NCBI GenBank assembly: GCA_020845575.1
Contig: JADLFL010000076.1
Span: 62,001 to 126,000, forward strand
Direction: 5' to 3'
DNA length: 64,000 nucleotides
Origin: Acidobacteriota bacterium
Lineage (GTDB): Bacteria > Acidobacteriota > Vicinamibacteria > Vicinamibacterales > Vicinamibacteraceae
In this document: positions 33,394 to 42,049 of the stretch, piece after piece
Layout of the letters: each line of letters opens with the position of its first letter
Position numbering within the stretch: the first letter of the stretch is position 1
Translations under genes and position numbers: made by a program
The notes under the pieces: model-generated
The model's database searches: none
What the model was told of the DNA's origin: nothing
The model's input: only the letters and a program-made list of their open reading frames with translations

Positions 33394-35199
33394 ATGCAAC
33401 TCGCGGCCATCGACTGGCTGATCCTGATCGGCACGCTCATCGTCTGTTTCGCGCCGGCGCTGTTGTTCGGGAGGCGCGCGGGCCAGAGCACGTCGGAGTT
33501 CTTCGCGTCGGGCCGATCGGTGCCGTGGTGGCTGGCGGGCCTGTCGATGGTGGCCACGACGTTCAGCAGCGACACGCCCAACCTCGTCACCGACATCGTG
33601 CGCCGCAACGGCGTGGCGGGGACCTGGGTGTGGTGGGCGTTCGTGCTGACCGGCGTGTCGACGGTGTTCTTCTACGCGCGGCTGTGGCGTCGCTCGGGCG
33701 TGATGACCGACCTCGAGTTCTACGAGGTGCGGTACTCGGGGCGCCCCGCGAGCTGGGTGCGGGGATTTCGCGCGGTGTATCTCGGACTGTTCTTCAACAG
33801 CATCATCATGGCGACGGTGAACCTGGCCGCCTGCAAGATCATGGCGATCCTGTTCGGCCTCGAGCGATGGCAGACACTGGCGGCCGTCGGCCTGCTCAAT
33901 GTCGCGTTCGCGGCGCACTCGGGGTTGTGGGGCGTGCTGGTCATCGACATGATCCAGTTCTTCATCAAGATGACGGCCGTCATCGCCGCGGCGTACTTCG
34001 CGCTGCACGCGCCGGGCGTGGGCGGACTCGACGGCCTCATCACGAAGCTCTCGACGACGCGTGGACCTGACGGCATCGACTATCTTGCCGTGCTGCCCGA
34101 CTTCGCCAATCACTGGGAACTGGCGGTCGCGGTGTTCGTGATGCCGATCGCCGTGCAGTGGTGGGCGGTGTGGTATCCCGGCGCGGAGCCGGGCGGCGGC
34201 AGTTACATCGCGCAGCGCATGCTCGCGTCCAAGTCGGAACGCGACGCACTCGGGAGCGTGCTCTTCTTCAACGTGGCGCACTACGTGCTGCGCCCGTGGC
34301 CGTGGATTCTCGTGGCGCTCGCCTCGATCGTCGTGTACCCGGAACTCTCGGACATCAGGGCGGCGTTCCCGGCAGTGGACCCGGGCCTCATCGGCCACGA
34401 CATCGCGTATCCCGCCATGCTGAAGTTCCTGCCCGTGGGTTTTGCGGGCCTCATGGTCGGCGGCCTCGTCGCCGCCAACTCGTCGACGATCCTCACGCAC
34501 CTGAACTGGGGCGCGTCGTATCTCGTGCACGACTTCTATCGGCGCTTCATCAGGAGCGACGCCACCGAGGCGCACTACGTCCTGATGGGGCGCCTGGCGA
34601 CAATCGGACTGTTCCTCTGCTCGGCAGCGACGGTCTATCTGCTCGACACGGCCAAGGATGCGTTCGACATCATCCTGCAGGTGGGCGCCGGCACGGGCCT
34701 GCTGTATCTCGCGCGCTGGTTCTGGTGGCGCGTGAACGCGTGGTGCGAGATTGCCGCGATGGTGAGCTCGTTTCTCGTGTCGCTCGGCTTCCTCGCGCTC
34801 GCACGCGCGGGCACGCCGGTCAGCACGCACCGCGCGCTGCTCATCACGATCGCGATCACCACCGTGTGCTGGGTGATCACCGCGTTTGTGGCGCCGGCCA
34901 CCGACCGTGACGTGCTCGTCGCGTTCTATCGCAAGGTGAGACCGGTGGGCCCGGGCTGGGCGCCGATCCGCGCCATCGCCGGCGATCTCACCGACGACGG
35001 CACGCGGGGCGACAACATTCCGCTGGGCCTGCTCGGCTGGCTCGCCGGCTGCGCGATGATCTGGTCGGCCCTGTTCGCCGTCGGCAACGTGCTCTACGGC
35101 CGCATGGGCTACGCGATCGCCCTCGTCGTCGTCTGCCTGGCCACCAGCGCCGTCGTGATCGCCGTGATCAAGCGTCAGTGGCCGACGACAGCACGGTGA
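33394..35199 (+). CDS. sodium:solute symporter (SSS) family transporter
   Basis: This 601-residue inner-membrane protein has about 13-14 helices in the LeuT-like SSS pattern. Family features include FFASGRSVPWWLAGLSMVAT followed by TFSSDTPN in the first helix, and GFAGLMVGGLVAANSSTILTH (split: GFAGLMVGGLVAAN and SSTILTH) before helix 9. Members take up sugars, amino acids or carboxylates with Na+; the substrate is not readable. The downstream DAC-domain gene starts at a GTG that overlaps this stop, suggesting that the two act together. Confidence 0.92.
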   Translation: MQLAAIDWLILIGTLIVCFAPALLFGRRAGQSTSEFFASGRSVPWWLAGLSMVATTFSSDTPNLVTDIVRRNGVAGTWVWWAFVLTGVSTVFFYARLWRRSGVMTDLEFYEVRYSGRPASWVRGFRAVYLGLFFNSIIMATVNLAACKIMAILFGLERWQTLAAVGLLNVAFAAHSGLWGVLVIDMIQFFIKMTAVIAAAYFALHAPGVGGLDGLITKLSTTRGPDGIDYLAVLPDFANHWELAVAVFVMPIAVQWWAVWYPGAEPGGGSYIAQRMLASKSERDALGSVLFFNVAHYVLRPWPWILVALASIVVYPELSDIRAAFPAVDPGLIGHDIAYPAMLKFLPVGFAGLMVGGLVAANSSTILTHLNWGASYLVHDFYRRFIRSDATEAHYVLMGRLATIGLFLCSAATVYLLDTAKDAFDIILQVGAGTGLLYLARWFWWRVNAWCEIAAMVSSFLVSLGFLALARAGTPVSTHRALLITIAITTVCWVITAFVAPATDRDVLVAFYRKVRPVGPGWAPIRAIAGDLTDDGTRGDNIPLGLLGWLAGCAMIWSALFAVGNVLYGRMGYAIALVVVCLATSAVVIAVIKRQWPTTAR

Positions 35200-36542
35200 G
35201 AGTGGTGACTCGGGGTCGCGACATGCCTGGCCAACTCCCTTCGACGCGTGTGGACGCGGCGTACGACTATCCGCCCGACCTTGCCAGGTTCGCCCTGGAC
35301 CGGTGGTCGACGCCGCCGCCAGCCGCGCCGCAGGCTCCGGTGCCGGAACTGGCCACGTTGACGCATTTCCTGTCGGCGTGCTACCAGGCGAGCCTGCTGC
35401 GCGAAGAAGAGCGCCCCGTGACATTCCGCGCGATCCTCGCCTCGCCGGACCAGTTCCCGGCTGGCGGCGTTGCGCCAGCCGGCTTGCGTCGGCTCGCCTT
35501 CTGCGACGCGTGTCCGCTCGATGCCAATCAGCTGCGACGACTCGCCGTGGCGGCCGACATGCACCGGATGCTCATCGGCGCACACCAGGACGGCGACGGC
35601 AGCTTGCGGATCTGGGGCCTGGTCAACTCAGGGCCGCGCTGGCTTCGGGACGTCCAGGGCGGCCGGCGGGCGGGCGCGCCACTCCCGGCGGTGCCTGTCG
35701 CGCATGTCGAGGCGCCGGGCGTCGTGAGCGTGTACCGCGGACCGGAACTCGTCGCAAGACTTCAGGGAGGCCGCATCTCGGGTTCGCGGGCGGACGCGTT
35801 CGCGTCCACGTGGCTGCCCGATCGATTCGCGGACCTCCGTGCGGAGATGGAGGTCCGCCACTTCCGCGCGCGTGAGGCGTCCGCCGTTCACTGGGCACCG
35901 ATCGCGTCGAACCTCTCGCACGCCATCTCGCAACGCATGATGAAGCGCGCGATCGCCCTGCTGCGCCACGCGCGACACGGGGGCACGATCGTCTTCGTGC
36001 CGATGGAGACCGCGCAGGATCTGTGTGCTGCCGATCCCTTCATCGATCTCAAGTACGGCTTCGAGGACGTCCCCAGGCAGGGGTCGTTTCCCGATCTCGT
36101 CGTGTCCATCCTGAACCGTCTCGCCGCCCTCCATGGCGACGGCCCGCGCCCGAACGACCCCGTCGGGTGGGCGGAGTTCGAAACCACGCCTGACGATGAG
36201 TTGGCCACGCTCGATGAAGCACTCTTCGAGATGGCCCATCTCATCGCCGGACTCGCGTCCACCGACGGCGCCGTCGTGTTGAACAAGCAGCACGACATCC
36301 TCGGGTTCGGCGGGATGATCTCCGGCCGACTGCCGGCGGTGAGACGCGTGGACAGAGCGCTCGACCTCGACGGCAACGCCGTCGCGGAGGAAGGCACCGA
36401 GAACGTCGGAGCCCGTCACCGGTCCGCGTACCGGCTGGCGGGCGCGCTGCCGGGCGCCATCGTCATCGTGATCTCGCAGGACGGCGGCGTGCGGTTCGTC
36501 GCCCAGAAGGACGGACGCGTCACCTACTGGGAGCAGGAATGA
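35196..36542 (+). CDS. DAC-like (diadenylate-cyclase-related, DACNV-type) domain protein
   Basis: About 448 residues, apparently cytoplasmic. The C-terminal 130 residues carry the two DAC signatures: STDGAVVLN (Asp357-Gly-Ala) and GARHRSAYRLA (Arg407-His-Arg409), followed by the strand GAIVIVISQDGGVRF. In DisA/CdaA these form the ATP site that makes c-di-AMP, so catalytic activity is possible, though the spacing between motifs (about 50 residues) is longer than in DisA. The N-terminal 300 residues include an SLRIWGLVNSGPRWL segment and resemble the putative sensor domain called DACNV. I chose the GTG at 35196 because it overlaps the symporter stop; ATG at 35223 is an alternative. Confidence 0.7.
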   Translation: MRVVTRGRDMPGQLPSTRVDAAYDYPPDLARFALDRWSTPPPAAPQAPVPELATLTHFLSACYQASLLREEERPVTFRAILASPDQFPAGGVAPAGLRRLAFCDACPLDANQLRRLAVAADMHRMLIGAHQDGDGSLRIWGLVNSGPRWLRDVQGGRRAGAPLPAVPVAHVEAPGVVSVYRGPELVARLQGGRISGSRADAFASTWLPDRFADLRAEMEVRHFRAREASAVHWAPIASNLSHAISQRMMKRAIALLRHARHGGTIVFVPMETAQDLCAADPFIDLKYGFEDVPRQGSFPDLVVSILNRLAALHGDGPRPNDPVGWAEFETTPDDELATLDEALFEMAHLIAGLASTDGAVVLNKQHDILGFGGMISGRLPAVRRVDRALDLDGNAVAEEGTENVGARHRSAYRLAGALPGAIVIVISQDGGVRFVAQKDGRVTYWEQE

Positions 36543-36574
36543 CCGGGTGGAAAGTGCGTCGAATGCCCGTCGCG

Positions 36575-36785
36575 CACGCCCGCGCTGCTGCCCCGGTCGC
36601 CGCTGGCCGGTCTGCTGATCGATGTTCCAGCCGAACTTCGACGTGATCACGACCTCGTCGCGGAACGGCACGATGGCCTCGCCCAGAATCCGCTCGCATT
36701 CATGCGGGCCGTAGGCTTCGGCGGTGTCGAAGAACGTGATGCCCCTGTCGAACGCCACGCGGTTTGCGACCAGGTCATGTTCCGG
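36575..36785 (-). pseudogene. aldo/keto reductase, internal fragment
   Basis: Reading the minus strand from about 36779, the frame gives VAFDRGITFFDTAEAYGPHE then CERILGEAIVPF and VVITSKFGWNIDQQTGQRRP, which is the tetrad-bearing N-terminal region of an aldo/keto reductase with Asp, Tyr and Lys still present. Both the true start and the last three quarters of the gene are missing. The closest intact relative in the window is at 13334. Confidence 0.7.

Positions 36786-39659: not shown

Positions 39660-42049
<2,390 letters not shown>

Follow-up and report, generated by a model that had tools for sequence, protein, structure and literature searches.

A stand-alone DACNV-DAC protein encoded behind a sodium symporter in an Acidobacteriota bacterium is probably a second diadenylate cyclase

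In the stretch of DNA analysed here (the window, 64,000 nucleotides from an Acidobacteriota bacterium), a sodium symporter gene is followed by a gene that is a stand-alone member of a widespread, little-studied bacterial family of signalling-nucleotide cyclases. Its soluble product, with an N-terminal DACNV domain and a C-terminal DAC domain, is probably a second, divergent diadenylate cyclase acting beside the housekeeping CdaA; that the protein is of the diadenylate-cyclase type is well supported, its activity being inferred. This explanation is preferred because of the family to which the protein belongs, its DAC fold, the register and conservation of its motifs, the existence of a separate CdaA in the genome, the lack of a recurrent neighbour and the position of the protein in the tree. 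The gene is spread over many phyla without fixed partners, and its position behind the symporter is most likely an accident of its landing place and not a dedicated switch. The features of the locus are collected in Table 1, in which, as in the text, residues are numbered from ATG 35223 unless the 454-aa open reading frame is stated.

Table 1. Features of the symporter/DACNV-DAC locus, with positions in the window
Feature	Position	Strand	Basis
SSF sodium:solute symporter, substrate not assigned	33394-35199	+	PF00474, 1.4e-20, 74 bits (cut-off 22.8)
DACNV-DAC protein, 439 aa	35223-36542	+	Likelier start ATG 35223; 454 aa if GTG 35178
DACNV domain, residues 36-134 (Pfam range)	35328-35624	+	PF21751, 3.9e-25, about 88.4 bits (cut-off 27)
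DAC-like folded unit of the model, residues 38-187	35334-35783	+	Fold match to DAC structures only
C-terminal DAC-fold domain with insertions, residues 226-439	35898-36539	+	DisA 4yxm, Z 12.6; hhalign to CdaA, E 8.8e-6
DGA motif, residues 348-350	36264-36272	+	DGA in 59/61 relatives, D and G invariant; aligns with CdaA DGA
GFG motif, residues 361-363	36303-36311	+	Invariant in 61 relatives
RHR motif, residues 398-400	36414-36422	+	R and H invariant, second R in at least 90% of 61 relatives; aligns with CdaA RHR
SQD motif, residues 418-420, at the place of CdaA SEE	36474-36482	+	S and D invariant, Q in at least 90% of 61 relatives

The original prediction placed a sodium symporter and then a DAC-like gene on the same strand, and both open reading frames are indeed present, with Pfam matches to SSF, DACNV and, weakly, DAC; the nearest solved relatives of the symporter are the vSGLT-type sodium/glucose cotransporters. 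The translational coupling also proposed, through a GTG start overlapping the symporter stop, is not favoured by the comparison with relatives. GTG 35178, which does overlap this stop, is merely the first possible start of the DAC-like frame. The N-terminus of the nearest DAC relative (63-64% identity) reads MPEENAGSEDGRDAAGYSYP, that of the window protein from ATG 35223 reads MPGQLPSTRVDAAYDYP, and in most relatives conservation sets in only downstream of this ATG. Thus, ATG 35223 is the likelier start; it lies 23 nt beyond the end of the symporter frame, and a stop-start overlap is not established. Co-transcription of the two genes is possible. Directly downstream of the DAC gene, before the one that follows, the minus strand (36564-36758) carries a piece of an aldo/keto reductase (PF00248 positions 27-79 of 291), an apparent gene remnant that is in keeping with a rearrangement at the locus. 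A 97-aa open reading frame (39684-39977, plus strand) that contains a LysR-type DNA-binding domain without the ligand-binding part is probably a gene fragment.

The DAC-like nature of the C-terminus is borne out by its fold and by catalytic motifs that are in register and conserved. In an AlphaFold2 model of the full protein, obtained with 61 relatives (pLDDT 86, pTM 0.85), residues 226-439 match Thermotoga DisA D75N with c-di-AMP (4yxm) at Z 12.6 over 124 residues, with an rmsd of 2.3; all the CdaA and DisA entries listed give Z values of 8.9-12.6, and the next unrelated chain stands at 3.4. When a profile of the C-terminal half is compared with CdaA proteins by hhalign (E 8.8e-6), DGA falls on DGA and RHR on RHR. 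Among the 61 relatives, no change is seen at D348, G349, G361-F362-G363, R398, H399, S418 or D420, whereas R400 and Q419 are each retained by at least 90%. DGA and RHR are needed for ligand binding, and catalysis requires two DAC domains placed head to head (PMC8573169). From the modelled fold and the register, both motifs would share one site, and their near-fixed state argues for selection acting on an active site; a diadenylate-cyclase-type enzyme is therefore plausible on sequence and model grounds. The presence of both motifs had been correctly anticipated, with residue numbers (357-359 and 407-409) that are six too low, since they lie at 363-365 and 413-415 of the 454-aa open reading frame. 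Their spacing, described as different from that of DisA, is real and is accounted for by an insertion within the DAC domain, taking into account that the motifs are in register with those of CdaA and that the fold matches DisA and CdaA.

It has to be noted that several features count against the cyclase reading. The match to DAC (PF02457) is weak, with 24.5 bits for the open reading frame against a cut-off of 27, rising to 27.3 bits when neighbouring in-frame matches are added; no family fits the protein in an NCBIfam scan; and the window sequence has ARHR in place of TRHR and SQD in place of SEE. This divergent score would also suit a receptor, that is, a nucleotide sensor whose DAC domain binds ATP or c-di-AMP without synthesis, as would the lack of fixed partner genes. 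Moreover, in other DACNV proteins of the class RHR is often replaced by RHL, RHI or RHF, so that the wider family does include cases of lost catalysis. However, RHR is kept in nearly all 61 members of the query subfamily, a degree of conservation that an enzyme which had lost its activity would not be expected to show, and the receptor is considered a rather doubtful alternative to the second cyclase. The replacement of RHR suggests that many of the common 380-aa DACNV-DAC proteins have lost or changed catalysis. Such proteins with RHL (or RHI, RHF) are found at loci L013, L018, L019, L020, L024 and L027 and at similar loci of the class, in a survey made with a motif regular expression on one strand and, since it picked up some spurious open reading frames, restricted to clean rows.

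The DACNV half, which contains neither DGA nor RHR, was predicted alone with 43 relatives (pLDDT 85.8, pTM 0.80), and its helices and strands follow one another in this model as they do in a short DAC. Among candidates chosen by Foldseek only, all the chains with Z of at least 5 (42 of 42) are DAC proteins and the next entry has a Z of 2.0. The DAC entries give Z 6.1-7.8 over 117-125 residues (rmsd 3.3-4.4), a Z of 7-8 not being decisive alone, and the sole good match in Foldseek itself is a DisA (E 2.2e-3). By profile-sequence comparison, the likeness of DACNV to DAC (hhalign E 0.2 and 0.063) is no better than that obtained with shuffled columns. Since the DACNV model matches DAC structures alone, it may be suggested, tentatively, that DACNV is a DAC domain stripped of DGA and RHR and that each DACNV-DAC protein is a tandem cyclase of the pseudo-DAC/DAC type, a model-based proposal that is a lead and not a result. 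Some class III adenylyl cyclases are built from unequal halves; by analogy, the active half could have the pseudo-DAC half as its face-to-face partner, in cis or in trans, and the latter could in this way control the synthesis of c-di-AMP or take a second substrate of another kind. If DACNV were a pseudo-DAC, the fold and the origin of a "probable sensor" domain would be known, and its mode of action could be tested. No mention of DACNV was found in the literature searched, a search not covering Galperin 2023 (All DACs in a row).

A regular CdaA is encoded elsewhere in the genome (TIGR00159, 229.8 against a cut-off of 188.8), and, of 60 genomes in the order that give a DAC match, 56 also have one. 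The genome of the window further encodes DHHA1-domain proteins, a group to which c-di-AMP phosphodiesterases belong. Neither a PgpH-type hydrolase nor a c-di-AMP riboswitch was found in the genome, and no RNA families were found near the symporter and DAC genes of the window. In the mechanism proposed for the second cyclase, ATP would be bound by the C-terminal domain through DGA and RHR, and c-di-AMP would be made once two copies of this domain come together head to head. Control of the activity would fall to the N-terminal DACNV domain, perhaps a DAC-like domain that has lost catalysis, and the c-di-AMP formed would add to the general pool. Because the gene lies behind the symporter, it may be transcribed by read-through. 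Thus, if the DACNV-DAC subfamily is active, its host bacteria would have a second, soluble source of c-di-AMP besides CdaA.

A local nucleotide switch for one transporter had been put forward for the symporter and the DAC-like gene, with recurrence of the pair as its test. No SSS gene was found in the flanks of 80 relatives' genome loci (0/80; some flanks stop early at the end of a contig, and simple gene calls were used) or beside query-like DACs of the class, and no DAC accompanies any of 19 SSS orthologues (73-84% identity) across the class. In two genomes of the same genus (G001 and G004) both genes are present, about 1 Mb or more apart. As the pair does not recur, the analysis gives no support to a dedicated switch, and the symporter is probably a neighbour and not part of a dedicated system, a negative result that spares a false lead.

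The broader form of this proposal, in which local c-di-AMP controls the adjacent symporter or ion transport in general, could call on the 23-nt distance and common strand of the two genes and on the nearest relative (G044; L068:1736-5897, the same record as L110), where the DAC gene lies 14 nt upstream of trkA-trkH, TrkA of Streptococcus mitis being a protein that binds c-di-AMP (PMC12453120). However, besides the failure of the symporter pair to recur, Trk genes stand beside one relative only, c-di-AMP diffuses, and CdaA is already in the genome, and such a switch is judged unlikely. In G044, the closely spaced DAC-trkA-trkH genes are a possible c-di-AMP/potassium operon, and a link to transport through trkA-trkH beside the closest relative is possible, as is a weaker general link of DAC to ion transport, with this single case in its favour. 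A hybrid histidine kinase gene precedes the three genes. Trk-DAC linkage as a general rule was rejected, since it is seen in one of the 80 relatives, G044/L110 alone.

A conserved operon partner was likewise discarded, no Pfam family being found in more than three of 55 sampled operon-like neighbours. The only repeats worth noting are glycosyltransferases (Geomonas and two Verrucomicrobia) and a UDP-sugar dehydrogenase (Geomonas). In Geomonas (L137:3689-7520 and others), the DAC relative lies between the UDP-sugar dehydrogenase and the glycosyltransferase genes, and in the two Verrucomicrobia (L121, L124) a glycosyltransferase gene is upstream of it.

Relatives occur in at least eight phyla (Acidobacteriota, Planctomycetota, Actinomycetota, Verrucomicrobiota, Melainabacteria/Cyanobacteriota, Thermodesulfobacteriota, Myxococcota and Nitrospirota). 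DACNV is matched in 61 of 61 of them, and the DACNV plus DAC architecture is present in all or nearly all. Further full-length relatives with about 30% identity, named "putative sensor domain DACNV-containing protein", are plasmid-borne in Hymenobacter (Bacteroidota). The tree puts the window copy together with those of G044, Bryobacterales and Planctomycetaceae (100/97), near Rubrobacteraceae, and copies from its own genus elsewhere. Because the window copy groups outside its genus, horizontal transfer, or an old duplication followed by loss, fits these sequences better than within-genus inheritance. A DAC beside CBASS has been proposed as the second cyclase of an anti-phage system (PMC13092281), and the patchy distribution of the present family, which suggests transfer, would agree with a role of that kind. 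However, the 55 operon-like neighbour positions yield one match to a defence model (mad3) and no CBASS gene, and the window DAC protein matches no PADLOC model, which makes an anti-phage cyclase highly improbable.

When the second-cyclase reading is set against known systems, the c-di-AMP-controlled Trk/Ktr potassium uptake systems are approached by the nearest relative, whose DAC gene precedes trkA-trkH, and not by the window gene, whose locus has no Trk gene and whose genome has no TrkH. DisA provides the best structural match of the window DAC domain (4yxm, Z 12.6), although this domain is N-terminal in DisA and C-terminal in the window protein, which does not match NF010009 (NCBIfam scan, E 0.01). 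CdaA (DacA) shares with the window protein the DAC fold and DGA and RHR in register; however, about 30 residues separate these motifs in CdaA and 48 in the window protein, which gives no TIGR00159 equivalog match, the true CdaA being separate in the genome. The DACNV proteins (PF21751) have the same two domains as the window protein. Most of those of the class are shorter than the query, with about 380 aa, and the ones whose sequences were inspected carry RHL, RHI or RHF, whereas the query subfamily, whose alignment with them covers chiefly the DAC part, keeps RHR.
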